Shown piece by piece: positions 915 through 62,661 of a stretch of DNA of 64,000 bases. The stretch's first letter is position 1. Each line of letters starts with the position of its first letter. Source of the DNA: Chrysopilus asiliformis (Eukaryota > Arthropoda > Insecta > Diptera > Rhagionidae). The translations under genes were made by a program, and so were the position numbers. The stretch spans positions 101,192,284-101,256,283 of the forward strand of contig OZ035962.1 of NCBI GenBank assembly GCA_964034945.1, read 5' to 3'. The notes below the pieces were generated by a model. The model had not been told where the DNA came from. It worked only from the letters and a program-made list of their open reading frames with translations, and searched no databases.

Positions 915-1970
915 ATGTTTATTAAAATTTGTGTGCTGAATTTAGTTAGTATTTATTCAATGAATTGCTTTTAAAAAGTACTTTAACGAGTGTAAAACAT
1001 TTTTATAGTACATATTTTTTTTATAATCACAGATTGTGTCGACTGTATTCGCCACAATAAGACCAATTTCAAAAGATCGTCAAATACTTGTTGGTGAGAA
1101 TTCAGAGACATTATCTGAAATTATTGACGAATTTCGATGCTGTGTAAAGAGTGAATCTCAACTGAAATCTCGTGTCGATGATCAGTTTCTGGTGTCTTTT
1201 TTAAGAAATGCTAAATACGACGATGAAAAAGCTTTAGATCAATTGAACGCATTTTACGCTATTCGGGATGTTTTCCCGGACGTTTTTAAAAATCGAAATA
1301 TTTTTAAGAATTCGAAAATTCGCGATTTGTTGAAATCTGGGTAATTTCTAAAATTTTAAATAAAAGTTTGAAAACTGTGCCAATTTTAAAGGTTTTAATT
1401 TTTAGATCCTGGGTTTTTATGCCGCAGGGAGATATACCGAGACCGGCTGTATTTATTGGCCGCTGGGGAGCTTTTGATCCAAAAACATACACGATAGATG
1501 ATTCTTGTTTCGTTGGAACAACGGCATTTGAAATTCTCGCCTGGGAAAACGATGATGCGACAATTTCTGGATCGCGGGTGATTTTGGATCTTGCGAATAT
1601 CACGGAAGCTCATGTGGTGCAATATTCTAATGAATTGTTTCGAAAATATATTGGAATTAATGATGATAAAACTCCTACACAAATAGTGGGATTCCACTTT
1701 ATAAATTCATCACCACAGACGAATGTTGCCATCGAACTTTTTAGAAATATTGTTAAAGATTCTATGATTTACGATCATGGATCGAATTTAACCGCTCTAC
1801 AGCAATTCATCCCGCAGGATCAACTTCCGGTTGAATATGGTGGACCGAAATGGACTATTTTAGATCTCACTAAGAATTTGATAGAATATTTTGAAAAATA
1901 CGCTGATTATTTTGATGAAGATGAAAAAATGTTTGGAACGACTGAAAAGATCAATAAAAACAATTCATAA
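915..1970 (+). CDS. CT1: secreted CRAL-TRIO lipid-carrier-like protein
   Basis: Exons 915-944, 1033-1340 and 1406-1970, giving 300 residues. Exon 1 joined to exon 2 starts MFIKICVLNLIVSTVFA, a typical signal peptide with likely cleavage after VFA. The CRAL-TRIO N-terminal helices follow (DDQFLVSFLRNAKYD at about residues 59-73). The lipid-binding domain contains GRWGAFDP, LANITEAH and FHFINSSP, and ends with LPVEYGG (about 253-259). Introns are GT-AG, phase 0 and phase 2. Unlike its relatives, exons 3 and 4 are fused: the third intron is gone, together with three codons just before it. By family the protein should bind a hydrophobic ligand such as a tocopherol, retinoid or other lipid; the ligand is unknown. 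Export is inferred from the signal peptide only. Confidence 0.88.
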
Positions 1971-2025
1971 GTTTATTCTGAGAAACAATTTTTTAAATTA
2001 AATATCGTTTGATAACTAGTATTTT

Positions 2026-2600
2026 TATACCCGTATGGTGAAACCAAAGGGTATATTAACTTTGCCTTACCGTTTGTAACGCCAAGATCTCGTCATCGCA
2101 CACAAAAATGAATTACACCAGTGTGTTTAGAATGATGAAAAAAGTTGAATTTAGCATGTCCGTCCGTCCGTCTGTCTGTCTGTCTGTCCGTCTGTCTGTC
2201 TGTCCGTCTGTGGCGCGGATTGCGGGCGCACGGATTGAGCTAGAGACTTGAAATTTTGCGCAGATTCGTTTTTCGTAAAATGTGAGGCTAAGTTCGTTAG
2301 TGGGCAAAAATGGACCATTAGGGGGGGTACCCCCCATACGAACGAAAACGTTTTTTGCAAATATCTCAAAAACGGTGCATCTTATCAAAAAAGTCCAAGA
2401 ACAAAACTTATTTAGGATATGATTCTACATAAAACTCCCATACATCAGAATCCGATTGGAATAAATTTTAAAAAATCCTTTTGGAAAGTTTGACTTCATA
2501 GTGTAATTTTGGTACCTACAACTGTTCGAATTTTGATACGAATATCACCATACGGGTCTCCAATGATTGCCAGATTGGCAATTATAGCTTTTGTTATGTT
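2026..2600 (+). mobile_element. Foldback-like element, copy 2
   Basis: Starts with TATACCCGTATGGTGAAACC, has a GTCC/GTCT microsatellite at about 2157-2212, and reaches CACCATACGGGT near 2546-2557, an inverted copy of the terminal motif. The sequence matches copy 1 in reverse. It lies just downstream of CT1. No coding capacity beyond translated microsatellite. Confidence 0.7.
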
Positions 2601-3424
2601 TTTATTTATCAAATTTCAGTTTCATTTTAATTTTGATTAACATTCTGTAAACATAAAATTCAAATATCACTACTGGTAACATTAAATAGTTCTCAAATTT
2701 TTTAACAAAAGTTTGCAAACTAAAATGTTTTAAAAAATAAAATTTAAATAATAATATCTATTCATCATGTAGCCAATCAGGCATAAATAAAGAAAAGGAA
2801 CAAAAAATTAAAACTAATAGTATTGTCAGCATCCTTTAAGAATAAAAGTACGTTTTTTCCTGACAAAGGCACACGGGACAAAAATTAATAAATTCCGGAG
2901 AAAAGTGCCAAATTAAATTGGACCTTTATCCGGAAACTTCCGGGCAAATGGCCATTTTAGTTTGAGACTTTTACCCGAAATCTTTTTCCAGACAAAAGTC
3001 CACGTTTTCCGGATACAAGTCCATCTTTTTCGGGGCAAGAGACTATTGAGTTTTTTCACTTTTTGCAAGATTTTATACATGCTTTCACATATGCTCTTTA
3101 ACCCATTTCTTGCCACCATTTATATTCCATAATAGCAACTTTGACTCCTATGTGGTAACAAAAAGGCTCAAAGTTGCTCAAAGTTACTGGTGCGAAAATG
3201 CACCATTGGTAAGAAATGGGTTAACATAAAGTATTGAACAATCAGTCTTCCGAATCAAATAATTTTTAGAAATTTCCATTTATATTTTATTTTTTAAAAT
3301 TAAAAAATTTATTGAATTTTCCATTTATACAGGTTTTAATGCTACAATATCAATTTTTTTTCTTTCCATATTTGGAATATTTTGAGACAAATTTTAAAAA
3401 ATATATAAAACTGATATTTTACAG
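2601..3424. other. Intergenic between CT1 and CT2
   Basis: AT-rich. Around 3100-3225 the phrases CCCATTTCTTGCCACCA and TGGTAAGAAATGGGTTAA form an imperfect inverted repeat. No exon 1 for CT2 could be recognised here: no ATG leads in frame into a phase-0 donor with a hydrophobic stretch. Confidence 0.5.
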
Positions 3425-4506
3425 ATATCTTCGAGTGCGTTCGCTTTTCTTAGACCAATTTCAAAAGCCCGGCAAAAATTAGCATCAATAATAGGCGAAA
3501 ATCCTGACACGTTAGTGAAGAAAATTACCGAATTTCGAACTATTGTTAAAAATCAACCTCACCTAAAATCCCGTACTGATGATCAGTTCTTGGTATCATT
3601 TTTGCGAAATGCAAAATAGAATGTGGAAAAAGCAAAGAAGAGAGTAGATTCATTTTATGCAATTCGAAATGTACACCCGGAGGTTTTTAAAAACCGAAAT
3701 ATTTTTAAAAATCCTAAAATCCGAGAGCTACTGGAAAATGAGTACATATTTTTAGTAATTTTGTAATAGAAGGTAAGAAAATGAAATATTATTACTTTTA
3801 GTACCACGATTGTGATGCCTCAAGGGGATATTCCCGGACCCGTTGTATTTCTTGGTCGGTGGGGGGCTTACGACCCAAATAAATACAGTATCGAAGACGT
3901 ATGTTTTGTTGGGACAACCGCATTTGAAATTTCTGCATGGGAAAATGATGATGCAACCATTTTTGGAGCATGGGTTATTTTTGATTTGGCGAACGTTACA
4001 CAAGCTCATGTGGCACAATATTCGCATGAGCTTTTCAGAAAATATTTTTTGGTTAATCCAGAAATTACTCCAATCGAAGTAAAAAGTTTTCATTTTATAA
4101 ATACGACACCAGTATCGAAGATTGCTGTGGAAATCGCAAGAGACGTCGTTGAGGGTTCGCTAAAGGATAAAGTATAGAAACTGAAAGAAATATAAATTTG
4201 TGCTTATTTGAATATATAAAATTTTAATTTCAGATTTACGATCATGGATCGAATTTGGAGTCTTTGTACGAATTCATTCCGAAAGAGCGACTTCCGATTG
4301 AATATGGGGGACCCGAGTTTCAGATTTCAGATCTTACAAAAAACTTGACGAAAGTTTTTGAAAAATACGCAGGTTTTACAGACCAAGATGAACAAGTCTT
4401 TGGAACTAATGAAGAGCTTAGGAAAGGTACTTCACCAATAGATAAATTTTTTAAGAATTTTAAAAAACCTGTTAAAAGCATTTTAAATGTTGACAATATT
4501 TTTTAG
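3425..4506 (+). pseudogene. CT2: CRAL-TRIO gene with in-frame stop in exon 2
   Basis: Exon 2 is 3425-3741, exon 3 is 3802-4171 (370 nt) and exon 4 is 4234-4506. All splice sites and phases match the family. Codon 65 of exon 2 is TAG (3617-3619), where relatives have the tyrosine of NAKY, so the product would stop inside the N-terminal helices. Everything downstream remains open, including GRWGAYDP, FHFINTTP and LPIEYGG, so the lesion looks recent, or is an allele or a sequencing error. The exon 2 start (ISSSAFA) keeps the end of a signal peptide, but exon 1 was not found. AATAAA follows the last codon at about 4510. A functional readthrough gene is possible but unlikely. Confidence 0.75.
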
Positions 4507-5950: not shown

Positions 5951-6980
5951 AGATATTTGAGTGCATCGCTTGAGATTAGGCCGCTTACAGAAGATCGTCA
6001 AATGGTCGCCGCAATTATTGGTGAAAATCCCAAAACGCTATCTAACAAAATTGAGGAATTTCGATCCTGTGTTAAAAATCTACCCAAGATTAAACCACGC
6101 ACCGATGATCAATTCCTAATTTCTTTCCTACGATACGCTCAATACGACATAGAAAAAGCGTTGGATAAACTGTATTCGTTTTATGCAGTTCGAAGCGTGT
6201 ATCCAAATGTCTATAAGAATCGAAACATATTCAAGAATTCAAAAATACGGGAATTGTTGAAAAACGGGTTTGCAGTGATTTAAAAAAAAGTGGAGTTTTT
6301 GAGAAATTTATTTTCAGAACATGGACGTCAATTCCGCAAGAAAACATGCCAAGGCCAGCCGTATTTATTGGTCGTTTCGGATCATTTGATCCGAAAAAAT
6401 ATGATATAGACGATGTGTGTTTTGTTGGAACAACCGCATTCGAAATTTCTGCATTGGAAAATGATGATGCGACGATTTTTGGAGCCCAGGTAATCCTGGA
6501 CTTTGGTAATATTACGGCAAATCATGTAACACAATATTCTCGGAAATTGTTTAGCAAATATTTTATGCTTAATCTTGAGAGGATTCCAGTTGAAATTAAA
6601 GGTTTTCACTTCGTAAACACCACACCATTATCAAGAGTTGTTATCGATTTTTTAAGGTATTCTGTGGAATATTCATTACAAGGCAAAGTAAGATTTACAT
6701 TCGTTAACAAAAAATTCTGAATTATTGAATAAAAATATTGTTACAGATATTTTCGCATAGTTTCGATTTAAAATCCCTCTACAAATTTATACCGCAAAAG
6801 CAACTTCCGGTTGAATATGGTGGACCGAAATTAAGCTTTGCGGACCTTTCCAAAGACATGACAACAATTTTTGAGAAATATGCAGAGTTTTTTGATCAAG
6901 ATGAAAACATGATTGAAGCTAATGGAGAGCTTCAAGAAAATCGTATACCAATAATTGATAAGAATTTTGACTTACCGTAA
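5951..6980 (+). CDS. CT3: CRAL-TRIO protein, exon 1 unresolved
   Basis: Exons 5951-6267, 6318-6687 (370 nt) and 6747-6980 form one open frame of 306 residues with family phases 2 and 0. The N-terminal helices carry DDQFLISFLRYAQYD. The lipid-binding part has GRFGSFDP, FGNITANH, FHFVNTTP and LPVEYGG. Exon 4 begins IFSHSF where relatives have IYDHGS. Exon 2 begins RYLSASLEIRPL, without the small-residue signal-peptide end of its neighbours, and no good first exon is present, so the true start is unknown and the gene may be losing or have lost its signal peptide. AATAAA occurs at about 7000. It may be a young pseudogene despite the open frame. Confidence 0.72.
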
Positions 6981-11005: not shown

Positions 11006-12167
11006 TTATTTAACATTTTTAAAATATTTATCTAATGGTGAAGCGCCTTTTCGAAGTTTTTCATTCGATCCAAAGGAAACATCTTCATCAAAATATTTTC
11101 CATATTTTTCGAATTGTTTGATCAAGTCTTTGGTAAGTTCTGAAAACGATAATTTCGTTCCACCATATTCAACCGGAAGTTGATCCCTCGAGACGAATTT
11201 ATAAAGAGATGTCAAATCGGATCCATGCTCGTAAATCTAAAATGGAGTTTTTTTTTAATTTTTTAGTCAAATAAAAGGTTTAATCCTACTTTATCCTTGA
11301 GTGAGTCCTCAACAACGTCTCTGACAATATCAACAGCAACTCTGGACAACGGTGTTGTGTTTATAAAGTGTAAACCTGTTATTTCGATTGGAGTCATTTG
11401 AGGGTTAATCAGAAAGTATTTTCTAATAAGTTCTCGCGAATATTGCGCCACATGAGCCTCTGTGATATTCGCCAAGTCAAAAATCACCCATGATCCAGAA
11501 GTTGTTGCGTCATCATTTTCCCATGCCAGGATTTCATATGCCAATGTTCCAACGAAACATGAATCGTCCAATGTGTACTTTTTGGGATCAAAAATTCCCC
11601 ATCTACCGATAAAAACAGCCGGTCTTGGTATATTTCCCTGAGGCATCACAATCCAAGTGCTAGAAATTACAAATCTATTTAATATAGATCTTTAATTAGT
11701 ATGATTTTAAGAAAATACTTCTGTTCTAGCAAATCACGAATTTTTGGATTCTTAAAAATGCTTCGATTTTTGTAAACGTCTGGATAAACATTTCGAACAG
11801 CATAAAACGAGTCCAACTTCTCCTTTGCCTTTTCAACGTTGTATTTGGCATTTCTCAAAAAAGACACCAGAAATTGATCATCATTACGAGATTTCAGTTG
11901 AGGTTCATTTTTTATACGAGATCGAAGTTCCTCAATTTTATTGACAAAAGTTACAGGATTTTCTCCAACAACCTTTTGACGTTCTTCTGAAAGTATTCTC
12001 ATTGTGGCCGATGCCTACGATAGAGTAAAGTTATAAACTGTTTTGTAAATTTAACTATTTTGTAAATTTATTATATGAAGAGTTGAAACTCGAAGAGGAA
12101 ACATGTTTTTCACATGTCTCGATAGACTCAAAAAAAAATTATGAAAAAAAGAAATACTCTTTACCAT
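11006..12167 (-). CDS. CT4: CRAL-TRIO protein, predicted cytosolic (ATG-only exon 1)
   Basis: Exons, gene order: 12165-12167, 11719-12014, 11290-11659 (370 nt) and 11006-11236, giving 299 residues. The first coding exon is the start codon alone, directly followed by GTAAAG. Exon 2 then reads ASATMRILSEERQ, so there is no signal peptide, and no alternative hydrophobic first exon was found in the 150-bp intron. The protein has DDQFLVSFLRNAKYN, GRWGIFDP, LANITEAH, LHFINTTP and LPVEYGG (about 243-249). The TATA box is 80 nt upstream. From the SGSW motif of exon 3 onward it is nearly identical to CT10, which has a signal peptide and lies 27 kb away in opposite orientation. Expected role: intracellular carrier of a hydrophobic ligand. 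Confidence 0.85.
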
Positions 12168-17072: not shown

Positions 17073-18237
17073 TTATTGTAAGTATTTAACAATTGGTGAG
17101 TCGCCTTTTCGGAGCTTTTCGTTTGTTCCGAACATTTCTTGATCTTCATCAAAATAGTCTGCATATTTTGCAAACACTTCGGTCAAGCCCGTGGTAAGAC
17201 CTGGAAAAGTCAACTTTGGTCCGCCATATTCAACTGGAAGCCGTTCTTTTGGAACAAATTTGTAAAGAGACTCTAAATCGGATCCATGGTCGTAAATCTA
17301 AAAAAAAAACATCTTAAATATTAAAATACTAATTTATATTTGGCTTTTTTTCTACCTTGTCTTTTAATGAATCGTTGACAACATTTCTGCCAATCTCAAC
17401 AGCTTTCTTCGACAACGGACTTGTATTTATAAAGTGAAATCCCTTTATTTCAATTGGAGTCATTTCAGGGTTAACTATGTAATATTTTCGAAAAAGATCG
17501 TACGTATATTCCGCTGCATGAGCTTCCGTCGTATTTGCCAAATCGAAAATCACCCACGCCCCAAAAATTGTCGCATCATCATTTTCCCATGCAGAAATCT
17601 CATGTCCTATTGTTCCAACGAAACACACATCTTCTAAACTGTACTTTTTTGGGTCAAAAGCTCCCCATCGACCAATAAAAATAGCCGGTCCTGGTGAATT
17701 TCCTGGAGGCAATGGGAATCCAGTTCTTAAAAATTATAATCTCTCAAACTCTGTATTTTCAAAAAAAAATTCAAATATTACCCGCCATCGAGTAACTCTC
17801 GAATTTTTGGGTTCTTAAAAATGTTTCGATTTTTAAATATGTTTGGATAAACGTTTCGAATTGCATAAAACGAGTCCAACTTATTCAGTGCTTTTTTTAA
17901 ATCGTATTTCGCATTTCTCAAAAATGCTACCAAAAATTGATCGCTTGTCCGGGATTTCAGGTGTGGCTGACTTTTCACAACTGCTCGAAATTCCTCAATC
18001 TTGTCCAACAATGTCTTAGGGTTCTCACCAACAATTCGTTGCCGTGCCTCGGACATTGGCCTGATTGAGCCCAATTCACCTATTTGTGACTATGATAGAT
18101 AAAAGTTAAGTATTTTTCTAAACTATAGACCTTAATTAATTAGAAAAATCGCCCTTAATGGAAACTAAGAGAAAGTTTTTTGACTAAATTCTACACAAAT
18201 AATTCGAAAAACAATAAAAATATAAATATTTTACCAT
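17073..18237 (-). CDS. CT5: CRAL-TRIO protein, predicted cytosolic (ATG-only exon 1)
   Basis: Exons, gene order: 18235-18237, 17782-18089, 17356-17725 (370 nt) and 17073-17297, giving 301 residues. As in CT4, coding exon 1 is ATG followed at once by the donor GTAAAA; exon 2 continues SQIGELGSIRPMSEARQ, which is polar, so no signal peptide. The only ATG in the upstream stretch is this one. The domain has DQFLVAFLRNAKYD, GRWGAFDP, LANTTEAH, FHFINTSP and LPVEYGG. At the start of exon 3 GF replaces the usual TW. A TATA box lies 84 nt upstream, and AATAAA follows the stop at about 17050. Exon 4 has no internal early ATG, so ORF-only scans could miss it. Role as CT4. Confidence 0.86.
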
Positions 18238-20845: not shown

Positions 20846-22017
20846 CTATGGTGCTTTGTAAAACTTAAAGTATTTCGCTATTGGTGAGATGCCTTTTCGA
20901 AGAGACTCATTTGTTTTACATGAAACATCTTCAAAATAATTTGCATATTCCTCAAACCGTGTTGTCAAGTCTTCGGTGAGGTCCGCAAAGCTAGACCCCG
21001 TGCCTCCATATTCAACTGGAAGTTGATCTCTCGGGACGAATTTATAAAGAGACGTCAAATTGCATCCATGCACATGAATCTGTAAAAGATTTTTTTTAAT
21101 TGCTTTGTTAAAATGTTTTATGTTTCTACTCTATTTCTAAGCGGTGCTTCGATAACGTGACTCGCAAGTTCGACTAGAATCCTTGAAAATGGCGTTGTGT
21201 TTATGAAGTGAAAACCTCTTACTTCGATTGGAGTGATTTCACTGTTAACAAGAAAATACTTTCTAAAAACTGTACTCGAATATTGTGTAACGTGAGCTTC
21301 CGTAATATCCGCCATGTCAAAAATGATCCATGCTCCAAAAAGTGTCGCATCATCATTTTCATATGAGTATATCTCGTATGCTGCCGTTCCAAAGAACTCC
21401 ATATCTTCAAAGTCGTATTTTTTTGGGTCAAAGGCTCCATAACGACCAATAAATATCGCCAAACTTATCGCACTCGTTTGGGGAATAGCAAACCACACGC
21501 TAAAAATTAAAATTTCTCAAATCACGGTTTTTTGCTATAAAACGCATAAAGAAATAATACCCGCATTTGAGCATCTCTGGTATAATTGTGTTATTGAAAA
21601 TGTTTCGATTTATGTAAACGTCCGGATATACATTTCGTATTGCACAGAATGCGTCTATATTTTGCGCTGCTTTTTCAACATCGTATTTAGCATTTCTCAA
21701 AAAGGACACCAAAAACTGATCGTCGGTTGGTGATTCAAGATGTGGTAGACTTTTGAGACAACACCGAAGTTCATCAATTTTCTCAGATAGCATATCTGGA
21801 TATTCACCAATAATCCTTTGCCGATCTTCAGAAATGGGCCTTATTGTGGCAAAAGCGAAAGAAAGTATCTGCGAAAAAGTATTTTTTTTATTATTAAAAC
21901 TTTATTTGTACTGACTTTATTTATTAAAAGTCGAAATATTTTCACGCTTTCCGATAGAAATTTAACAAAATTGAATTTGATACTAACTAAATTCAACACA
22001 AAAATTTTAATAAACAT
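20846..22017 (-). CDS. CT6: secreted CRAL-TRIO lipid-carrier-like protein
   Basis: Exons, gene order: 21988-22017, 21561-21868, 21130-21499 (370 nt) and 20846-21079, giving 313 residues. The N terminus, MFIKIFVLNLILSFAFA, is a signal peptide almost identical to that of CT1 and from a homologous first exon. The mature part has DDQFLVSFLRNAKYD, GRYGAFDP, MADITEAH, FHFINTTP and LPVEYGG. Exon 4 opens IHVHGC. The asparagine of the conserved ANIT sequon is aspartate here. A CATAAAA box lies about 80 nt upstream. It is followed downstream on the same strand by CT5 and preceded by CT7, in the minus-strand block. Confidence 0.88.
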
Positions 22018-25439: not shown

Positions 25440-26645
25440 TCACGGTAGTTCATAATGTTTAAAATATTTTAGTATCGGTGATTCAGACAACGGAATAGAT
25501 TTGTCTACTCCATACTTTTTCTCATTTTCATCAAAATAATCTGCATAATCTTCAAATTGTTGAGTCAACTTTGCGGTGAGCTCCGCAAAACTTGGGCCGG
25601 TACCACCATATTCAACCGGAAGTTGATCCTTCGGGACGTATTTATACAGCGATGTCAAATTGTGCCCATGCACAAAAATCTGAAACGGGATTTTCAATTA
25701 TTAAAAAATGTGACAATTGAGCCATTGCTTTTTTTTACTTTATTTTTGAGTGAATCCTCAACAACGTGTCTAGCAATTTCGACTGCAATCCTCGTAAATC
25801 CTGACGTATTTATGAAGTGGAAGCCTTTTATTTCGATTGGAGTAGTTTGAGGACCAATCAAAAAATACTTTCGAAAAACTTCACTCGAATACTTTGCCAC
25901 GTGAGTTTCCGTTATGCCTGCCATGTCAAAAATCACCCAAGCTCCAGAAATTGCCGCGTCATCATTTTCCCATGCCAAAATCTCAAATGCCGCTGTACCA
26001 ACATATCCCAAGTCATCAACATTACGTTTTTGCGGGTCGTAGGCTCCATACCGACCAATAAATACAGCAATACCTGGTTTAGCTCCTTGAGGCATTGTAA
26101 ACCAGACCCTAAAGTAATGAATTTTTTTCAAATTTTAATGTCCCTGGAATTTTTGTTTTCATCGTTAATAAATACTGGCAATCGAGAATGTCCTTCATCA
26201 CTGCGTTGTTAGACACGTTTCGATTTATATAAACATCCGGATATACACGCTGAATCCAGTAAAATTCACATAACTTCTGTTTTGCCATTTCAATATCGTA
26301 TTTAGCATTTCGCAAGAACGTAACCAAAAACTGATCATCAGTACGAGCTTTAATATGCGGTAGTTCCTTCACACAGGTTCGGAATTCTTCAAGTATGTCA
26401 TAACAAGTGTCAGGATTCTCACCATTAATAAGTGCGATTCTTTCACGGTCTTTTGAAAGTGGCCTAATTGCGGCTAATGTGCACGAAAATACCTACATTA
26501 GAAAATGCGTTTGATTTCACACAAATTTCACAACATTAAAGGCTAGGAAATTTTTTGTGATTCAAAAAAAAAATATTCAAATCAAATTTATACTAACTGA
26601 ATTCAGCACAAAAATTTTGAGAAACACTTTAAGAATACTTTCCAT
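25440..26645 (-). CDS. CT7: secreted CRAL-TRIO protein (relocated start)
   Basis: Exons, gene order: 26598-26645, 26176-26492, 25739-26108 (370 nt) and 25440-25679, giving 324 residues. Where CT1 and CT6 start with ATG, this gene has GTG; an in-frame ATG six codons upstream gives MESILKVFLKIFVLNS, joined to VFSCTLA, still a good signal peptide. The mature part has DDQFLVTFLRNAKYD, GRYGAYDP, MAGITETH, FHFINTSG and LPVEYGG. Exon 2 ends in CA, so the junction codon is Gln instead of the usual Gly. TATAAAATGTCGAG lies about 84 nt upstream. It is a tandem duplicate of CT8: exons 1-2, introns and promoter are nearly identical, while exon 3 differs at about 12 residues. Confidence 0.87.
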
Positions 26646-34600: not shown

Positions 34601-36144
34601 TTAACTTTGGTTTCGTGGAACTTTAAAATTCTTAAAATATTTCCTTATCGGTGAAACGCCCTCCCGAAGCGATTCGTTAGTTCCAAGCATTTCATCTTGA
34701 GTAAAAATATTTGCATAGTTTTCTAGCTGTTTAGTCAAGTCATCGGCAAGCTCGGAAAAACATAATTCTGATCCGCCATACTCAATTGGGAGTTGATCTT
34801 TCAAAACAAATGTGTAAAGAGATGTTAAATCACTTCCATGCACGTGAATCTGAAATGAATTTTTTTTTTATTTTAATATCCAAATATGTAAAAAACTTAT
34901 ATGTTAATTTTTCTACTTTATGTTTTAGCGGTTTCTCAACAACGTGTCTGACTATTTCGACTAGAATCCTCGTAAATGGTGTTGTATTTATGAAGTGGAA
35001 GCCTTTTATTTCGATTGGAGTCATTTCGGGATTAATCAAAAAATACTTTCGGAAAACCGCATACGAATATTGCGCCACATGAGCTTCCGTAATATCCGCC
35101 AAATCAAAAATAACCCATGCTCCGGAAATCACCGCATCATCATTTTCCCATGCCAAAATTTCATACGCCAACGTGCCAACGAAGCATGTATCATCAAAAG
35201 TGTACTTTTTTGGATCGTAGGCACCAAATCGACCGATAAATACAGCCGTTTTTGGTTCATCTCCCTGCGGCATCAAAAACCAGGTACTAAAAATTTAAAA
35301 AAGACCAATGCTTGTCGTTTTAATATATTTCAAATTTTTTTTTATAGAAATCGTCGCTTGAGTTTTGTTTTGACGTATATTTACTACAGCTGAGATATTC
35401 AAAAGAAAAATTATGAGAAAAATTGAGCACATACGGTAAAACAATACAAATTGAATTGAATTTTTCCCATATATGTGTGTAAACTCGGTATATATGGGAA
35501 ACAATAACGAATACCTTAGTAACTAATATATATTTTTGAAAATGGGTTTCAGCAATCGATAGAGCACCCCAAAAAACCTATAAAAGTGCAAAAATCTCAA
35601 AAAAAAAAGATTTTGCAGGATATGTGTAAACAATACTGAAGCAACAAAATACCTACTTCCTTTCCAGTAGATTCCGGATTTGTCGATTCTTAAAAATGTT
35701 TCGATTGTCGTAAACGTCCGGATATACATTTCGAATTGCATAGAACGCGTCTATTTTCATTAGTGCTTTTTTAACATTGTATCTGGCATTTCTTAAGAAA
35801 GAAACTAAAAATTGATCATCGGTACGGGATTTTAGATATGGTAAACTGGTTACACATTGACGAAGTTCTTCAATTTTCTCAAATACGGTTTCAGGATCCT
35901 CACCAATAGTTGATGCCACTCTTTGTCGATTTCCACAAATTGGTCTGATTTCGGCAAATGCAACAGAAATTATCTACGATAAAGTAAATCTTAGGTTTAA
36001 TTTAAACTAGTATGTAAAATTATGTTTTAATACTTAAAAAAAATTTAATAAAATAATATAATATTAAATAATACAAGTTGACAGCATACTAACTGAATTC
36101 AGCACGAAAATTTTAAAGAATATTGGGAAGAAAACGTACTCCAT
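34601..36144 (-). CDS. CT9: secreted CRAL-TRIO protein (relocated start)
   Basis: Exons, gene order: 36094-36144, 35657-35973, 34917-35286 (370 nt) and 34601-34849, giving 328 residues. The ancestral ATG position reads ATA; the frame is opened by an upstream ATG giving MEYVFFPIFFKIFVLNS, joined to IISVAFA, a strongly hydrophobic signal peptide. The mature part has DDQFLVSFLRNARYN, GRFGAYDP, LADITEAH, FHFINTTP and LPIEYGG. Intron 2 is unusually long for the block (370 bp). Exon 2 ends in AA, so the junction codon is Asn. A CATAAAA box lies about 80 nt upstream. It is head to head with CT10, with 2.25 kb between the start codons. Confidence 0.87.
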
Positions 36145-38395: not shown

Positions 38396-39592
38396 ATGTT
38401 TAAAACACTTTATACAAAAATCACTTTAGTCTGCTTTTTTAGCATAGTAAGTTACACAACCTTTTGTTTAAATTAATTACAATAAAGTTTTTGAATAGTA
38501 AAAGTTTTTTAAATCACATATTAATCACACGTTATTAATTTTGTATCTATCTTGACAATAGATATTTCCAGTGTGGGTTTCGGCTATACTTCGACCTTTA
38601 ACCGGGGTTTGGCAAAAACATGTTTTACAACAATTTGGAGAAAAGCCTTCGAATGTTTACAATAAAATTGGCGAGCTTCGATCATTGGTCCAGGAACAGC
38701 CGCATCTCTCATCTCGCATTGAAGATCAATTCTTAGTTTCCTTTTTGCGAAATTCTAAATACGACGTTGAGAAAGCTAAGGAGAAATTGGACTCGTTTTA
38801 TGCTGTTCGCGATATGTATCCAGACGTTTTCATAAATCGAAACATATTTAAGAATCCAAAAATTCGAGATCTACTGCAGAAGAAGTATTTTCATTAAGTT
38901 ATATTACAAATCAGATCTTTATTTTCAATTTCTAGCACCTGGTTGTTAATGTCTGAAGAAAATATTCTTAGACCGGCAGTATTTATTGGCCGATGGGGCG
39001 CTTTCGATCCAAAACAATACACTTTAAATGATGCATGCTTTGTTGGAACAATGTCGTATGAGATTTTCGCATGGGAAAATGATGACGCTATCATATCTGG
39101 ATCATGGGTTATTTTTGATTTGGCGAATATCACAGAGGCTCATGTGGCGCAATATTCGCGAGAATTAATTAGAAAATACTTTGTGATTAACCCTCAAATG
39201 ACTCCAATCGAAATAACAGGTCTTCACTTTATAAACACCACACCGTTGTCCAGAGTTGCTGTTGATATTGTCAGAGACGTTGTTGACGACTCACTCAAGG
39301 ATAAAGTAGAAATAGAATTAAACCTATTATTTGTCTAAATAATTAAAAAAATAAATTTTAGATTTACGAGCATGGATCCGATTTGACATCACTTTATAAA
39401 TTCGTCCCGAGGGATCAACTTCCGTTTGAATATGGTGGAACGAAATTATCGTTTTCACAACTTACCAAAGACTTGATTATAAAGTTTGAAAAATATGCAC
39501 CCTTTTTTGACCTAGACGAAAAATTGTATGGAACAAAAGAAAATCTTCGGAAAGGCGAGTCACCTTTAAGAAAATTCGTCATTAAATCTTAA
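38396..39592 (+). CDS. CT10: secreted CRAL-TRIO protein
   Basis: Exons 38396-38446, 38562-38884, 38936-39305 (370 nt) and 39362-39592, giving 324 residues. Exon 1 (MFKTLYTKITLVCFFSI, donor GTAAGT) joined to IFPVWVSA forms a signal peptide. The mature part has EDQFLVSFLRNSKYD, GRWGAFDP, LANITEAH, LHFINTTP and LPFEYGG. Exon 2 ends in AA, giving Asn at the junction, as in CT4 and CT9. From SGSWVIFDL to the end of exon 3 only about two residues differ from CT4, whereas exon 2 is clearly diverged, which fits conversion between distant opposite-strand copies. AATAAA lies at about 39617. Role inferred as a secreted hydrophobic-ligand carrier. Confidence 0.86.
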
Positions 39593-42555: not shown

Positions 42556-43709
42556 ATGGCCACAAGTAACTTTGCTAAAATAATTTTCATTTTCTGGTTG
42601 CACAGTGTAAGAAATTTTTGTTTCAATTTAACTACTAGTGACTAATTTTTCTTTAAATAGATTTTTTATTCTTGTGCTTTGGGAAACCTACGGCCTTTGT
42701 CCAGTGCCTTGCAGGGAAAAGTTTCTCGTTTGGGCGAGTCTCCTGAAGATGCTTCTAATGAAATTAAAAGACTTCGTTTGTGGGCCAACCAAGAACCACA
42801 TTTAAAATCTCGAAGTGAGGATCAATTTTTGGTTTCATTTTTACGAAATGCTAAATATGACTTCGACGCTGCAAAAGAAAAACTGGACGCTTATTATTCG
42901 GTTCGATCGGCTGCACCGGATGTTTTCAAAAACAGAAATATTTTCAAAAATTCCAAATTGAGACATTTAATTCGAACAAGGTACAGAAATTTTCGGTTTC
43001 ATACTTTTAAAGAGATTTTTTTAAATGAAACTTTGCTTTAGTGTTTGGCTAACGATGCCACCCAACAATGAGTCCACCCCAGCTGTGGGTATTGCGAGAT
43101 TCGGTGCATATGATCCAAAGAAATTCGATTTTGATGATTTTGCTTACACCGCTTCCGTTGGATACGACATTGCCGCATGGGAAAATGATAATGCTGTAGT
43201 TTCCGGATTGGTGCTCATACTCGACTGTGAAAATGTAACTGAAGCTCACATGACTCAATGGAAATTGAACCTATTCCAAAAATACACAGCGATTAATGTC
43301 GGTACTGTTCCCATCGAAGTAAAAGCTTTCCATTTTATTAACACAACACCAGCGATGAAAATCGCTGTTAATTATCTTAAAAATTCGGTAGACAAAATTT
43401 TGAGAGAAAGGGTAAAAACTGAAAGAATAATTCAAATCATGAAATTAATTTGGAATCGTTTCGTACTTTTAGATTTATGACCATGGATCAGATTTACAAC
43501 TCGTATATGAGTTCGTCCCAAAACATCAACTTCCAGTTGAATATGGAGGGCTGGAAATTACAGTAAAAGAGCTCACCCAATATATGGAACATTTAGTGGA
43601 GAAATACGCTGATTATTTCGATGAGGATGAAAAGAAATTTGGAACCAATGAATTTTTGCGAAAGGGCATTTCACCCATTGTAAAGTTAGCAAAAAATATT
43701 GTCTCGTGA
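42556..43709 (+). CDS. CT11: secreted CRAL-TRIO protein
   Basis: Exons 42556-42606, 42661-42980, 43042-43411 (370 nt) and 43473-43709, giving 325 residues. The first exon encodes MATSNFAKIIFIFWLHS (donor GTAAGA); with IFYSCA it makes a signal peptide. The mature part has EDQFLVSFLRNAKYD, ARFGAYDP, CENVTEAH, FHFINTTP and LPVEYGG. The exon 2/3 junction codon is AG+T (Ser) instead of Gly. It is the first member of the more diverged right-hand subfamily, in which GRWG becomes ARxG and NDDA becomes NDNA. Exon 4 lacks an early Met and would be missed by ATG-only scans. Confidence 0.86.
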
Positions 43710-46846: not shown

Positions 46847-48033
46847 ATGGGAAACACTTTTATCATTCGATTGATTACGATTTTTATCTTAAATGTGGTA
46901 AGTAGTTTTTTGTAAATTCCAAGTACAGTTTAAACATTTTGAATATTTCTTTGTAACTGTAGATCGCTATTTCTCGTGCTTCCTATGATATTAGACCGCT
47001 TTCTAGGGATCTAAAAGCGAAAGCTTATCAAGATTTTGGTGAGACTCCTGAAAAAATCTCCGAGAGTGTTGAAAAACTGCGATCGTGGATAAAAAATCAA
47101 CCCCATCTTAAATCTCGAACTGATGAACAATTTTTGCTATCGTTTTTGCGGAGAGAAAAATTTGACTTGGAAGCAGCACAAAATAGATTGGACGCATTTT
47201 ACTCGATTCGATCAATCTTCCCGGATGTTTTTGAAAAAAGGAACATTTTTAAAAATCCAAGGCTCCGAGAATTGGCTGAAACCGGGTATGATTTTGTTTT
47301 TTATTCATGAGAGAAAAAAATTTAATACGCAATAATTATTTTTAAGAACTTTTACATCAATACCACCAAGATCTGATGATCAACCTGCTATAATAATTGC
47401 ACGTTTAGCTGGTTATGATCCGGAAAAGTACAGTGTTGAGGAGTTCGCAAACCTAAATGCTTTAGGTACCGAAATCGCCGCATTTGAAAATGACAATGCC
47501 GCAATTTCTGGAATACAAGTTATTTATGATGCTGCAAATATAACCGAGGAACATGTCGCGAAATACGGTATTGATCTGTTCAATAAATATGTGCTAATCA
47601 TTTACGACATAAATCCGGCGGACATCAAAGGAGTCCATTTTATAAATACTAATCCAATTATCGACTATTGGATTGATGTGTTTAAATCCACATTCGATGA
47701 GAAATGGGTGAAACGGGTAATATTTTTTTTAATCTATTGAAAAAAAAAGTTTAGATAAAGATAAATAAATTTTAGATTAAATCACATCCCACTCTTAAAT
47801 CACTTCAAGATTCCATTTCAATGGAATTTCTACCAATCGAATTTAATGGTCCGAAGTACACGCCAAGTCAACTCACAAGTAAGACGATTAATCTATTTGA
47901 AAAATACGGGAATTACTTTGACGAGGATGCGAAATATGGAACCAATGAAAAATTGCGGAAAGGACCGCCATCTCTATTGAAATTTCTAAAAGCACAACAA
48001 ATACAAGAAATTAAGAAAAAAATTAAATTTTGA
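46847..48033 (+). CDS. CT12: secreted CRAL-TRIO protein, EFNG variant
   Basis: Exons 46847-46897, 46963-47285, 47347-47716 (370 nt) and 47776-48033, giving 333 residues. MGNTFIIRLITIFILNV joined to IAISRA is a textbook signal peptide. The mature part has DEQFLLSFLRREKFD, ARLAGYDP, AANITEEH and VHFINTNP. The family signature LPxEYGG is LPIEFNG, and the preceding segment reads SISMEFLP. These changes sit at the edge of the lipid-binding pocket and may alter ligand or gate behaviour. The tail is basic (EIKKKIKF). It is a tandem duplicate of CT13, 2.2 kb apart. Confidence 0.88.
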
Positions 48034-49025: not shown

Positions 49026-50210
49026 ATGGGAAACACTTTTATCATTCGGTTGATTACAATATTTCTATTAAATGTGGTTAGTAGTTTTTTGTAAATTTCA
49101 AGAACAGTTTAAACAATTTCAATATTTTTTTGTGACTGTAGTTTGCTATTTCTCGTGCTTCCCATGACATTAGACCGCTTTCTAGGGATCTAAAAGCGAA
49201 AGCTTATCAAGATTTTGGTGAGACATCTGAAAAAATCTCCGAGAATGTTGGAAAACTGCGATCGTGGATAAAAAATCAACCCCAACTTAAATCTCGAACT
49301 GATGAGCAATTCTTGCTATCATTTTTACGAAGAGACAAATTTGACTTGGAAGCAGCGCAAAATAGATTGGACGCATTTTACTCGATTCGATCAATCTTCC
49401 CGGATGTTTTTGAAAATAGGAACATTTTTAAGAATCCAAGGCTCCGAGAATTGGCTGAAACCGGGTAAGATTTTGTTTTTTATTCATGAGAAAAAAAAAA
49501 TTTAATACACAATAATTATTTTTTAAGAACTTTAACATCAATACCACCAAGATCTGATGATCAACCTGCCATAGTAATTGCACGTTTAGGTGGTTATGAT
49601 CCGGAAAAGTTTGGTTTTGAGGACTTCACAACCCTACAAGCTCTAGTTACCGAAATCACTGCATTTGAAAATGACAATGCCGCAATTTCAGGATTACATA
49701 TTATTTATGATGCTGCCAATGTAACAGAGGAACATGTGTCTCAATACAGTGTTGATCTTTTTAATAAATATGTGCTAATAATTTACGACATAAATCCTGC
49801 CGAGATAAAGGGAGTTCATTTCATAAATATTAATCCAGTTATCGAAAAATGGATTGATACCTTCAAATCCACATTTGACGACGATTGGGGAAAACGAGTA
49901 ACATATTTTTAAACATAAATCTATTGAAACGATTAACTCTTATAAATTTTAGATTAAAAAACATCCCACCCTTAAATCACTTCAAGATTCCATTTCAATG
50001 GAATTTCTACCAATTGAATTTAATGGTCCGAAATACACACAAAGTCAACTCAAAAGCAATATAATTAATCTATTTGAAAAATATGCGAATTATTTTGACG
50101 AGGATGCGAAATATGGAACCAATGAAAAATCGCGGAAAGGACCATCGTCGCTAACTAAATTTCCAAAAGCACATCTAGTACAAGAAATTAAGAAAAAAAT
50201 TAATTTGTGA
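49026..50210 (+). CDS. CT13: secreted CRAL-TRIO protein, EFNG variant
   Basis: Exons 49026-49076, 49142-49464, 49528-49897 (370 nt) and 49953-50210, giving 333 residues. The signal peptide is MGNTFIIRLITIFLLNV joined to FAISRA. By eye about 8 of 108 residues in exon 2 differ from CT12, but about 29 of 123 in exon 3. The second half of exon 3 (HVSQYSVD, INPAEIKG, FININPVI, WIDTFKSTFD) matches CT14 better than its tandem twin. It keeps LPIEFNG in exon 4. AATAAA overlaps the region just after the stop (about 50211). Promoter and 5' leader are those of CT12. Confidence 0.88.
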
Positions 50211-53555: not shown

Positions 53556-55693
53556 ATGGAGAATAAATATTTTAATCAGTTCACAGTTTTTCTGTTAAGT
53601 GTGGTTAGTTAGTTTTGTGAATTTTCAAAGCAAACATTATGTAATAATTTTAAAATTTTTTTAAACTACAGATTGCATTTTCTTGTGTTTCCGGTAATGT
53701 TCGAACGCTTCCTAGTGCACTGAGAGCGAAAGCGCAACACAAATTCAATGAAAATTCGGAAAAAATTTCAGAAAATGTGGAAAACCTTCGGACGTGGGCG
53801 AAAAATCAACCCCATCTTAGAGCTCGTAGTGATGATCAATTTTTGCTGTCATTTATACGAAGAGAAAAATATGATTTGGAAGAAGCGCAAAATAGATTAG
53901 ATGCGTTTTATGAAATTCGTTCAACATACCCGAATGTTTTCAAAAACAGGAACATTCTTAAAAATCCAAGACTTAAAGAAATAGTCGAGAGTGGGTAAGA
54001 ATTGATTCACTAATTTTGAAGCAAAAAACAAATCAGATTAAAGAGAAAAGTAAATTTAAGCAGCTAAAAATGAATGGTTCGCCTTTAATCTCAATTTAGA
54101 CCTGAAAAAATATACTACAGTCAACATTTTACTTTCCTCTGCTATAGAGGGAAAGTATTGTGTTCATCACGGAGACCAACTCGAAAATGGGGACAGATAG
54201 AAACTTTCCGATCAGTACGAAATCCGTTCCAAGCAAAATTATGAGGACATCCGAGCATCTGTCGTCGTTCTGTCTGTTTGTCGGTCTATCGGCTTTGTCG
54301 GTCTATAGCATGTTTCTCGGTCTATCGATCTGTTTTTTGAAGGAAATAATAACCAAATTTGAAGGAAATAAGTTTTTTTTTCATTATTTCCTTTAATTGT
54401 TTTTACGTATCTTAACGTTTCTTTAGATATTTGTGCCTATTCTGGAATCCAAATTAGAGTTAAGTTTGTTCGGTTTCCCCTAAATTTGTATTCTTTAATC
54501 CGGTGCGTTTCACTTTTATTCGAGAGCGTATGATCTAGTCACGTTTTGATGGTAGAATTACTCGTTGCCAATTTCAGAATACCAGAATATCAATTGAGTT
54601 TGGTTTTACGTTTTGACTTTGGATTCCAGAATAGCCATGACTATTTTTTACATATATTTTCCGAAATTAAATATTGCAGAGGAAAATTTTGTGTTGATCA
54701 CAGCGGATATTTTTGTTTTGAGTAAAGATAGAAGATCTGAAAAAAAAACAATAAAGAAAATCCTTTGTGGACTTTATAATTTTAACTAAATGCTTAACGC
54801 GTTGCGGTGCAATGCCTAGCCGGTCTTCGCCCTCCCCGTCCACGATGACCTGCGGCCTCGCTTAGACGGCAAAGCGATCAGGGGCGAGGTCTCTAGTTTT
54901 ATATTAGATTAAATCAATTTCACATTTTTAATTTTAAGTAGATGTAACAAAAACTGTTGCTTACTGCTTACCAAAAACTGTTGCTTACTGCTTACCTGTT
55001 GTTTACCAAAAAATTTATTTTCAAGGACTTGGACATCAATGCCAATAGGAAACGATGACAAGCCAGTAACAAATATTATTCGTTTGGGAGCGTATGATCC
55101 AAAAAAGTTCACTTTCGATGATTTTGCAACAATGGAGGCGTTGGGTAATGAAATACTAGCTGTTGAAAACGACAATGCGCCAATTTCTGGCATTAATATT
55201 GTTTATGATTGCACAAATGTGACCGAGGATCATGTCTCCCAATACAGTGTTGATGTCTTCAACAAATACGTGCTGATCATTTACGACATAAATCCTGCAG
55301 AGATAAAAGGATGTCATTTCATAAATATTAATCCAGTTATCGACCATTGGATCGACACCTTCAAATCCACATTTGATGAGGAATGGGCCGAACGGGTAAG
55401 AATTGTTTAATTGAATATTTTGTACACATGAAATTATTTTCTACCAATTTTAGATTCATAAGCATCCAGGTTTGGACTCGCTTCATGAATTCATCCCAAT
55501 AGAAAATCTACCAACTGAATATGGCGGTCCGAGATACACTTTGACCGAACTTACTAATAATACGATCAATTTATTTGAAAAATACGCCGATTACTTTGAT
55601 GAAGATGAACAATTTGGAACAGATGAGGAATCGCGAAGTGGAGCTTCATCCGTTTTAAAATTTCCCAAAGGACATAAGATAAAGAGAAATTAA
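53556..55693 (+). CDS. CT14: secreted CRAL-TRIO protein with repeat-filled intron
   Basis: Exons 53556-53603, 53672-53994, 55026-55395 (370 nt) and 55454-55693, giving 326 residues. MENKYFNQFTVFLLSV joined to IAFSCV forms the signal peptide. The mature part has DDQFLLSFIRREKYD, IRLGAYDP, CTNVTEDH, CHFININP and LPTEYGG. Intron 2 is about 1.03 kb, inflated by a GAGGGAAAGTATTGTG-family repeat (54130-54420) and more repeat-like sequence including a direct repeat of CTGTTGCTTACTGCTTACC just before exon 3. The second half of exon 3 is shared with CT13. AATAAA overlaps the stop region (55692). If the long intron is spliced correctly the gene is intact. Confidence 0.84.
54130..54420 (+). repeat. Dispersed repeat, GAGGGAAAGTATTGTG family, copy 2
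   Basis: Inside intron 2 of CT14. Same opening and CTGTCTGTTTGTCGG-type core as 9061-9614. Confidence 0.55.
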
Positions 55694-58038: not shown

Positions 58039-58045
58039 TATAAAA
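58039..58045 (+). promoter_or_regulatory. TATA box of CT15
   Basis: TATAAAA, 122 nt before the ATG. Confidence 0.45.
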
Positions 58046-58160: not shown

Positions 58161-59361
58161 ATGAGGAACAAATTTTTACTAAATCTGGTTACGATTTTTT
58201 TGTTAAGTGTGGTTAGTTTTTTGAATTTTATTAAATAATTTAGGAAAATTATACTAAAACTTATTCAAAAACACAGTTTTCTACATCGTGGGCTTCCAGT
58301 AACATACGATCGCTTTCCAGTGCACTAAAAAATAAAGTGTTACAGAAATTAGGTGAAAATCCTGAAAAAGTTTCGGAGAATGTGGGAAAACTTCGAACAT
58401 GGGTAAAAAATCAACCCCATCTTAAATCCCGAATTGATGATCAATTTTTGGCGTCATTTTTACGGAGAGATAAATACAATTTAGAAGCGGCCCAGGAACG
58501 ATTGGATGCCTTTTACTCAGTTCGGTCAACATTTCCAGATGTCTTTGAAAAGAGGAATATTTTTAAAAACCCGAAACTCAGAGATTTCCTTCAAACTGGG
58601 TAAGATTTATTTATCTTAAAGACTAAAAATTCTTTGTGAAACTTAACGATTTTTTAAGGACGTTTGTATTAATGCCTCCGAGTGATAATGATGTCCCAGC
58701 CGTTGCAATCCTGCGATTAGGTGCTTTCGATCCTAAAAAACATCCTTTCGAGGATTTAGGTAACCTGCTGGCAATGGGTTTTGGCCTGAGCGGTTTGGAA
58801 AATGATATTGCTGTAATATCTGGTATTCAGATCGTTTATGACTGCACAAATGTTACTGAGGACCATGTCTCTCAATATACTGCGGAAGTTTTTCAAAAAT
58901 ATGTTCTTATTAACGTGGATATAAGCCCTGTAGAAATAATAGGTTATCATTTTACAAATGTTTCACCAATAATGGAGCCTGGCATCGAGCTATTAAAAAC
59001 AGTGCTTGACACAACAATGAGACAACGGGTAAAACGAAAACGAGATTTTTTAATTGATTTTTTATAACAAAAAAAAAATCTACTTTAGGTCTATAAGCAT
59101 TCCGATTATGAATCCCTTTACAAGTTCGTTTCGAAAGACTTACTTCCTGTGGAATATGGTGGACCAAAATACACAATGCCCGAGTTAGTAGACAATTTAG
59201 AAAAATTATTGGAAAAATATGCAGATTACTATGATGAAGACGAAAGGAATTTCGGGTCAATTGAAAAGCTACGCACTGGAGTTTCGCCCGTGAAAAAATT
59301 TGGCAGAAGATTTTCAGATCTACCTAAAATAATTGCCGACAATTTAAAATTAGATTTGTAA
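58161..59361 (+). CDS. CT15: secreted CRAL-TRIO protein
   Basis: Exons 58161-58211, 58277-58599, 58659-59028 (370 nt) and 59089-59361, giving 338 residues, the longest member. MRNKFLLNLVTIFLLSV joined to FSTSWA is the signal peptide. The mature part has DDQFLASFLRRDKYN, LRLGAFDP, CTNVTEDH, YHFTNVSP and LPVEYGG. The FINTTP motif of relatives is FTNVSP, which is still an N-x-S/T sequon. The C-terminal tail is longer and basic (VKKFGRRF and beyond). AATAAA at about 59392. It lies in tandem between CT14 and CT16. Confidence 0.88.
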
Positions 59362-59646: not shown

Positions 59647-59647
59647 A

Positions 59648-60107: not shown

Positions 60108-60592
60108 TAAGTCAGACAAATGAGGTCAGACAAATTTTTATGAAATAAATCCATTTGTGCGGGGAAGGGGGGAATTAATGGTCCGATTGGATTTTGATGT
60201 ATGGAACGGTTATGTAAAATCGAATTCTAAGCACATTTTACCTTCATAAATTGTTCAATACGACTCACCGTTTTCGAGAAAATTGTTAAAAACTGTTTCG
60301 TTTGTATGGGAGAAGAATAGTCTGGATTTGCACGCTCAAGAACTTAGCTTTGGCATTTACGAGAAATGCAATTAGACGTCATTTTCATAGACTTGAATCC
60401 AAACAATATCGAAGAATTATAAGCAAAAAACAATTAAAAACATTTGTATTTTCAAATAAATATTGTATGAGACAAAATTTGTTTATTTTCGCAATGGATT
60501 AATTTCCTACTAAATTTATTGTCAACAGAGCTGCGTCCGCCTAAAGGTGAAGCCAATTAAAAATTAAAAAAAAACAAACAATTGTGCAAACA

Positions 60593-60599
60593 TATAAAA
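60593..60599 (+). promoter_or_regulatory. TATA box of CT16
   Basis: TATAAAA, 112 nt before the ATG. Confidence 0.45.
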
Positions 60600-60704
60600 A
60601 TTAGTTTACTTGGAAATTTTCAGTACAAATTGATGAAGTTTTTATAATTTTAATCATTAGAGGATAATCCGACTAAATTCAAACATCTCTTTAAAAATTC
60701 TGAA

Positions 60705-62661
60705 ATGACAAAGTTAATTGCTATATTAATCTTATCGGTATATTTGATAAATCTTGTGAGTACTAACAATTATTGGTTAATTTTTTAAGATATTTTGGAT
60801 GAAATCATCATACTAATATATAAAAATGAGTTGGTGTCTGTCTGTCTGTCTGTTCCTCTTTCACGCAAAAACGGCTGAACCGATTGACTTGAAATTTAGC
60901 ATGAGTGTCTGTGGTAGTTCTGGTTCCAACATAGGCATACCGAAAAGTAGCGCGATGGTTGGGGGGAGTAAGGGGAGGGGGTAAAGTGATTTCGAAACTT
61001 AGTTTTTGCGCTATGTTACCCTTTCGCGGGGAAACTACCGAGCCGATTGGCCTGAAGTTTAGCTCCAACATAGACCATCAAAAAAAAAAATTGAAAAAAC
61101 TTAACCCGGCAACGACGGGCATGCAAGCTAGTTTTAAATAAAATTGTGTTGTCCTAATATTTTTTTAAAGCAGCCATAGTGAAATGTTTTGATGTTAAAA
61201 TAAACTGTGAATTTCAGATATCCATTTCATATAGTGTAGGAATATTAGGATCACTTACTGATGTCGTTGGAAAAACAGTGAAGAAAACCATTTCCCATCT
61301 TGCTGGTGAAAATCTATCCGAAGTAACGAAACAAGTTGGACATCTGAAATCCTGGGCGCAAAATCAAAAAGGTTTGAATTCTCGAACTAGTGATGATTTT
61401 TTGGCAACATTTTTGCGAAGTGCTAACTACAATGTTGAGGAGGCACAGAAGAAAATAGACACATATTACCGGGTTCGATCAGCTGCGCCCGATGTTTTCA
61501 AAAATCGAAATATTTTCAAGAATCGAAAATTAAGGATCTTGGCTAAACTAGGGTAAGTAATACTTCTTGTTGTAACCGAGAAATACTTCTTGGTATGTAC
61601 CGGGTTTTTTATGCCCGGTTGATATTAGGCTGGGGTGACTTCATGTAACTTATTTTCGGTCGTCTAACTAATCGAAGGAAATTTTTATTCGCCAAAAATT
61701 GATTAAACAGGCCGACACCCACTCTGCTGCACACGATATAAGAGTATTTTCTATGTAATTTGGAATCGTTGAATCCGAATCTGGCAGTAGTTTGATTGTA
61801 CCAGATCTACTTTTCCAGATTATAGAAAAAAATGCCTTTAGGGGCCATACGATTAAGCAGGGTAATAGAAGGGTAAATAAAATTGACTTGGCTAAAGTAA
61901 ACTCTTTTCTGTCACTGTATCATACACCAAAAATTCTAATAAATCTCGAAAGTATGAACTTAAATATATAAAATATGGTTTTATATTTTTTTTAGACTAT
62001 TTATGATCGTACCAGCAAATGGGGATGAAGCTCCAATAGCAATCAATCGATTAGGAATTTACGATCCCAAAAAGACCACTTTTGATGATCATGGGTATTT
62101 TATGTCATTGGCCTATGAAGCCCATGCCTGGGATAGTCAAAATTCTGCTATTACTGGAATGTCGGTGATTGCTGATTGTGCGAATATGACTTTAGAACAC
62201 GTGGCCCAATATACACCTGAGCTCCTCCAAAAATACGTCCTAGTGAACCTTAATGGTAATCCTTTGCAGATGAAGGAGATGCATTTCATCAATACACCAC
62301 CATTTATGGAATCTACTATTAATTTATTGAAAAGAATAATGGATGAAAATATGCAGAGCATAGTAATTATAAAATTATTTGACCATTTTCAAAGTTTTTT
62401 TTTAATGAAACTCATTTATAGGTACACACGCATACCGATGATCTGACAACACTTTATGAATTTATACCAAAAAATCGACTTCCGAAAGAATATGGTGGGT
62501 CAAACGGTTCGATTAAAACGCTTATAAAAGATTGTGAACGAGTTCTTGAGAAATACGCAAACTATTATGAAAATGATAAGAAATTTGGACTAACTAAAAT
62601 AGTTAATAAAGGATTGGAAACGGTTTCAAATGTAGCTAATAGTATTTTATCACTATTGTAA
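60705..62661 (+). CDS. CT16: secreted CRAL-TRIO protein, most diverged member
   Basis: Exons 60705-60755, 61218-61552, 61996-62362 (367 nt) and 62422-62661, giving 330 residues. MTKLIAILILSVYLINL joined to ISISYS gives a signal peptide. Exon 2 is 335 nt, the longest, with an extra segment LTDVVGKTVKKTISHLAGE before the helices. The conserved DDQFL is SDDFLATFLRSANYN. Further on are NRLGIYDP, CANMTLEH, MHFINTPP and LPKEYGG. WENDDA of relatives is WDSQNS, and exon 3 is one codon shorter. Intron 1 carries the repeat at 60809-61162. All phases match the family. Its sequence is the least like the others, so it may be an older branch. Confidence 0.84.
60809..61162 (+). repeat. Dispersed repeat TATAAAAATGAGTTGGTGTCTG, forward copy
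   Basis: Lies inside intron 1 of CT16 and is the inverse of 43855-44362, ending AACGACGGGCATGCAAGCTA and TGTCCTAATAT. Confidence 0.65.

Follow-up and report, generated by a model that had tools for sequence, protein, structure and literature searches.

A clade of CRAL-TRIO genes with a predicted signal-peptide exon in a tandem array of the fly Chrysopilus asiliformis

The alpha-tocopherol transfer protein (alpha-TTP, encoded by TTPA), a lipid carrier of the CRAL-TRIO family, is cytosolic, as is usual in that family. Here we describe a 64,000-nucleotide stretch of DNA from the rhagionid fly Chrysopilus asiliformis (C3:101192284-101256283, in a genome assembly of 429 Mb and 42 contigs), hereafter the window, which holds a cluster of CRAL-TRIO genes, and whereas both alpha-TTP and CRALBP (RLBP1) are cytosolic and without a signal peptide, a signal-type N terminus is predicted in 12 of the 16 window genes. 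Two array proteins were searched, CT6 from the window and U2 from upstream of it; their nearest relatives of known structure are TTPA and RLBP1, with TTPA as the best Protein Data Bank sequence match (3w67, 3w68 and 1oip; E value 1.8e-17 for CT6 and 5.2e-27 for U2). A partial and poor domain model of CT1 (predicted local distance difference test, pLDDT, 63.9) likewise retrieved tocopherol transfer proteins as its ten best Foldseek matches, at template-modelling (TM) scores of about 0.4. The clade discussed below differs from TTPA both in its signal-type leader and in having mostly lost two lysines, K190 and K217.

Tandem multiplication of such genes has been described in Heliconius melpomene, where most CRAL-TRIO genes lie in tandem and twenty share one scaffold (PMC5739039); unlike the present array, these genes are discussed in a main text in which neither “signal peptide” nor “secret” occurs. 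Some precedent also exists for extracellular alpha-TTP-like proteins. The leafhopper protein EfTTP, alpha-TTP-like and 308 residues long, was placed among putative salivary secretory proteins (PMC11050670), although it is the product of a single gene expressed at a lower level in the salivary gland than in other tissues, and the available text shows no signal peptide for it. A CRAL-TRIO protein among the excretory/secretory products of the nematode Haemonchus was more abundant in the vesicle-depleted part (PMC10785392), and, unlike in the present clade, neither an array nor a signal peptide is described in the accessible portion of that report. For apicomplexan Sec14-like proteins, the key of a figure legend in PMC10543664 includes a mark for signal peptides. 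A literature search that covered few subscription papers gave, among the matches listed, no described insect family of signal-peptide-bearing CRAL-TRIO proteins.

The account that we favour, and consider probable, is that the signal-bearing genes of this array form a clade of secreted lipid carriers, which descended from cytosolic proteins of the alpha-TTP-like kind through a single gain of a signal exon and then multiplied in tandem. What carries it is sequence: the structure of the genes, their hydrophobic N termini, their union in one clade, changes in a basic patch and in the C-terminal tail, and purifying selection. The initial annotation had proposed a 16-gene CRAL-TRIO cluster at 915-62661, and all 16 loci were recovered there by exon-wise tblastn and spliced models, from the ATG of CT1 at 915 to the stop of CT16 at 62661. 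The signal-bearing plan consists of a short exon 1 (10–17 codons, with lengths divisible by three because of the way the models were built), a phase-0 intron and then exons 2, 3 and 4. The loci are listed here with the von Heijne-type cleavage score and, for some, the best 8-residue hydropathy (h8) of the joined N terminus.

CT1, 915..1970, plus strand: signal exon 915-944, exon 2 1033-1340, fused exon 3-4 1406-1970 (one frame, after loss of the third intron); score 5.5, h8 3.0
CT2, 3425..4506, plus strand: interrupted, exon 2 being broken by an in-frame stop (3617-3619); a search over 600 bases gave no signal exon
CT3, 5951..6980, plus strand: exons 2-4; upstream ATG exon (5817) without a hydrophobic core
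CT4, 11006..12014, minus strand: exons 2-4; upstream ATG exon (ATG 12167) weak only
CT5, 17073..18089, minus strand: exons 2-4; apparent signal-exon relic upstream (ATG 18237) without the usual donor
CT6, 20846..22017, minus strand: signal exon 21988-22017; exons 21561-21868, 21130-21499, 20846-21079; score 6.7
CT7, 25440..26645, minus strand: signal exon 26598-26645; exons 26176-26492, 25739-26108, 25440-25679; score 6.1
CT8, 28660..29871, minus strand: signal exon 29824-29871; exons 29403-29719, 28966-29335, 28660-28899; score 6.3
CT9, 34601..36144, minus strand: signal exon 36094-36144; exons 35657-35973, 34917-35286, 34601-34849; score 5.6
CT10, 38396..39592, plus strand: signal exon 38396-38446; exons 38562-38884, 38936-39305, 39362-39592; score 1.8, h8 3.04
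CT11, 42556..43709, plus strand: signal exon 42556-42606; exons 42661-42980, 43042-43411, 43473-43709; score 3.4
CT12, 46847..48033, plus strand: signal exon 46847-46897; exons 46963-47285, 47347-47716, 47776-48033; score 1.7, h8 2.83
CT13, 49026..50210, plus strand: signal exon 49026-49076; exons 49142-49464, 49528-49897, 49953-50210; score 4.3
CT14, 53556..55693, plus strand: signal exon 53556-53603; exons 53672-53994, 55026-55395, 55454-55693; score 8.1
CT15, 58161..59361, plus strand: signal exon 58161-58211; exons 58277-58599, 58659-59028, 59089-59361; score 8.8
CT16, 60705..62661, plus strand: signal exon 60705-60755; exons 61218-61552, 61996-62362, 62422-62661; score 4.0

The joining of exon 1 to exon 2 by GT-AG rules that had been suggested for CT1 and CT6-CT16 holds in all 12 genes, each time in phase 0, across introns of 54–462 bases whose donors read GTTAGT, GTAAGT, GTAAGA or GTGAGT. 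Four genes outside the window (U10, U11, U13 and C4x) also have a complete signal exon with a phase-0 GT-AG junction, giving 16 signal-bearing genes; a convincing one is absent from CT3, CT4 and CT5. The array supplies its own controls in the form of 17 relatives (U1-U9, D1, B1-B4 and three of the four genes of a cluster on contig C4) that begin at a Met of their own, 3–6 codons ahead of the homologous motif (M-A-D-I-R-P-I-S in U2), and have no hydrophobic leader; because the leader is missing, we infer that these relatives are cytosolic. For the fourth gene of the C4 cluster, at C4:24217430, no start could be read, and it stands outside all N-terminus counts. Scored by Kyte-Doolittle hydropathy, and for cleavage by a von Heijne-type matrix, the joined N termini of the 12 window genes reach a best 8-residue hydropathy of 2.48–3.29, against at most 1.81 in the 17 relatives, and the signal-bearing genes and relatives do not overlap. 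By the same search criteria, the 600 bases upstream contain a qualifying signal exon in 0 of the 17, and in 15 of them an in-frame open acceptor is wholly absent upstream. First-order resampling of 600 upstream bases (300 trials per gene) yields a qualifying exon by chance at a rate of 0–7% per gene. The claim that most members carry an export-type N terminus is well supported by sequence, and the leaderless neighbours serve as internal controls.

How exactly the leader abuts the conserved part of the protein is more variable than had first been thought. The hydrophobic stretch had been said to end directly before a conserved xIRPL/I segment in all 12 genes, but the exact motif is found in seven (CT1, CT6-CT9, CT12 and CT13), with LRPL in CT10 and CT11, VRTL in CT14, IRSL in CT15 and LGSL in CT16, and the predicted cut falls directly before the motif segment in a different seven (CT1, CT6-CT9, CT11 and CT14). 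The cleavage region is encoded by exon 2, and a cut predicted at the place where the relatives start suggests that a signal peptide has been set before an N terminus that is otherwise intact. In none of the aligned signal-bearing rows is there a Met at that position; CT4, which is without a signal exon, does have a Met in the motif. One might suppose instead that these proteins enter the endoplasmic reticulum (ER) and stay there, either in the lumen or anchored by an uncleaved hydrophobic N terminus, handling lipid inside the secretory pathway. Such residents could be represented by CT10 and CT12, whose hydrophobic N termini have weak cleavage scores, and by CT13 and CT16, in which the best cleavage site lies well ahead of the conserved segment, but the cleavage score is at least 3.5 in nine of the 12 window genes (CT11, at 3.4, falls just below with the two weak cases) and a KDEL-like C terminus was found in none of the 16 signal-bearing proteins, and we think ER residence unlikely.

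In a tree of the mature part with five cytosolic rows, the 16 signal-bearing genes fall together with CT3, CT4, CT5 and U12 into one clade with 100/100 support, and the same clade is recovered at 100/100 when seven cytosolic rows and the loci L002 and L003 are included, although the latter two are long branches that meet and were flagged as such by the tree program. Neither tree includes CT2, U1, U3, U7 or the genes of the B and C clusters. In the larger tree the stem of the clade is long (0.66); in the tree with five cytosolic rows CT16 is the deepest branch of the clade, the fork above it being without strong support. If CT3-CT5 and U12 are left uncounted, one gain of the signal exon suffices, and the tree agrees with one such gain and later loss or decay in these four genes. 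The observation made from the window is right, and stronger than stated, because the wider array adds a leaderless control and a likely single origin. That the array consists mostly of decaying duplicates without present function would agree with the stop codon in CT2 and with a signal exon lost or absent in CT3, CT4, CT5 and U12; the 12 signal-bearing window genes nevertheless all have full open frames in the spliced models, and the ratio of nonsynonymous to synonymous substitution rates (dN/dS) lies between 0.19 and 0.46 in nine pairs, four of which are near saturation with dS above 1.1, while CT9/CT6 has a dS of 1.07. These ratios suggest purifying selection on the array genes, and general decay is very improbable.

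Exon 1 itself behaves as translated sequence would. Summed over 12 non-independent pairs, its differences at codon positions 1, 2 and 3 number 29, 12 and 31, with 35 synonymous and 37 nonsynonymous substitutions, and by this measure exon 1 evolves like coding sequence. TATA-like boxes stand 77–122 bases upstream of the exon-1 ATG in 10 of the 16 signal-bearing genes, against 2.4 expected; among the 17 cytosolic-type relatives one box was found upstream of the Met, against 2.3 expected, the Met serving as reference point in place of a mapped first exon. That exon 1 goes unused, with translation starting at an exon-2 Met to give cytosolic proteins like the neighbours, is the least probable of these accounts: array neighbours do start at a Met beside the homologous motif, but it is opposed by the lack of a Met there in any aligned signal-bearing row, the coding-type substitution and consensus-like donors of exon 1, and the upstream TATA-like boxes. 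Where the exon came from was also considered: derivation from an ancestral exon of the 5′ untranslated region finds no support, acceptors just upstream of the relatives’ Met being present in six of 17 against 5.1 expected.

Further traits concern the surface by which alpha-TTP meets phosphoinositides. Simulations described in the available part of PMC4487086 have R192 and R221, and also R68, K190 and K217, contacting the head group of phosphatidylinositol bisphosphate (PIP2), and mutants of R59, R192 and R221 are there said to lose phosphatidylinositol phosphate binding. We placed four of these residues (K190, R192, K217 and R221) by alignment to alpha-TTP, with CT2 outside the 16-gene patch and sequon counts and K190 unscored in eight B/C-cluster loci, U3 and U7. 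Among the 16 signal-bearing genes the K190 place holds an acidic residue in 13, Q in two and K in one, while it is basic in seven of seven cytosolic rows; in all 16 window loci, here including CT2, it is E, D or Q. The K217 place is basic in one of the 16 and in all six scorable cytosolic rows. On this alignment the patch appears weakened or partly dismantled, not erased. The suggestion that the cluster represents an unusual lipid-transport system is plausible and stands in part: it fits the loss of two patch residues, but it is tempered by the partial retention of the patch and by the precedents, as far as described, in PMC11050670 and PMC10785392. At the other end of the protein, a GTFRxLxxD tail, a feature defined in this analysis and not a database motif, is present in L002, L003 and 11 of the 17 cytosolic array genes, whereas no clade member has it; it was not found in the other six cytosolic genes, whose last exons are only partly covered. 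The 16 signal-bearing proteins, with their first 24 residues removed, contain 40 sequons against 28.4 in shuffled sequence, four clade members without a signal peptide contain 12 against 7.6, and the seven cytosolic rows contain 6 against 9.2. Neither net charge nor isoelectric point gives a clean division between the groups.

Several observations weigh against the secreted-carrier account and have to be set beside these. Five changes on the tree are needed when CT3-CT5 and U12 are counted, a pattern that we interpret as one gain plus four losses. The cleavage scores of CT10 and CT12 are poor, so some of these proteins could be signal anchors. R192 and R221 are each still basic in 13 of the 16 genes (R221 with one gap), K190 is kept in U11 and K217 in CT12. 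The excess of sequons among signal-bearing genes is modest and non-independent, and CT3-CT5 and U12 show the same excess and the same patch changes without having a signal peptide; these traits therefore mark the clade and not export itself. A gain of cysteines for disulphide bonds was considered and rejected, the reverse being seen (0.76 per 100 residues in the clade against 1.74 in the seven cytosolic rows). The structure model, at the pLDDT given above, is poor and contributes little that the sequence match does not.

Several steps can be envisioned by which secreted carriers would have arisen and would now act. An ancestral gene of the array would have gained a first exon that placed a signal peptide ahead of the old N terminus, and this signal-bearing ancestor would then have multiplied in tandem. 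Its products would enter the ER and the secretory pathway and lose the leader at the old start or close to it. The remaining CRAL-TRIO carrier, about 265–315 residues long, would be released, most likely out of the cell because none of the 16 proteins has a KDEL-like ER-retention end. The secreted carrier would hold a small hydrophobic ligand in the CRAL-TRIO cavity, and since two basic patch residues are gone, it may do so with less or no reliance on the phosphoinositide exchange of cytosolic alpha-TTP. The PIP2 partner of alpha-TTP lies at the cytosolic face of the plasma membrane and would be unavailable outside the cell, so a weakened patch fits. Real cleavage and export, ligand carriage and the tissue concerned are what we infer from these features. 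Whether this amounts to a whole animal clade of extracellular Sec14-family lipid carriers, which arose when a gene in a tandem array gained a signal exon once and whose phosphoinositide-exchange patch weakened afterwards, is a broader proposition on which we are evenly divided. If true, it would add a further type of extracellular carrier to the lipocalins, the takeout/JHBP proteins and the odorant-binding proteins, and would clearly exemplify the conversion of a cytosolic lipid-transfer family into a secreted one, with before and after relatives in the same array. It would also open to test how a Sec14 fold takes up and gives off its ligand without cytosolic phosphoinositides, and how an existing protein acquires a signal peptide.

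The array extends far past the window, with 34 exon-2 loci on contig C3 within the stretches fetched: beyond the 16 in the window there are 13 upstream (U1-U13), D1 just downstream and four (B1-B4) near C3:101.35 Mb. In the 36 kb gap between D1 and the B genes a PF00650 search, whose counts are lower bounds, gave no match, this stretch not having been fetched for the exon-wise search. The models of U8 and U9 are without exon 4, and that of U12 is without the start of exon 2. Among four proteins scanned, PF00650 scores were 50.5 bits for CT6, 54 for CT15, 71.5 for CT16 and 88.3 for U2, against a cut-off of 22.6, and across the array exon-wise matches exceed the cut-off. By tblastn, four further loci lie on contig C4 near 24.2 Mb. 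C4x, at C4:31.89 Mb (C4:31891693-31894146), is a close duplicate of CT7/CT8 that has introns and a signal exon; its exons 2-3 are 94–97% identical to those of CT7/CT8, and the upstream 150 bases are 95–97% identical. By these features it is a recent DNA-level duplication onto another chromosome.

Other features of the window include two frames on the minus strand, at 40752-41258 and 52667-52972, which are putative pieces of a Tc1/mariner-type transposase, judging by motif. A recurring repeat family, in copies with ACAG/TGTC tetranucleotide arrays, occupies 94-465, 2116-2424, 23544-24232 and 63152-63695, and 33209-33381 consists of about eight copies of a unit of 21 bases that reads open either way. 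In the assembly at large, no TTAGG arrays were seen in the six contig ends read, and the left ends of C3 and C4 consist of a near-perfect satellite with a unit of about 36 bases. Contig C42 is a mitochondrial genome of 16,384 bases, and its gene order appears to be the ancestral insect one.

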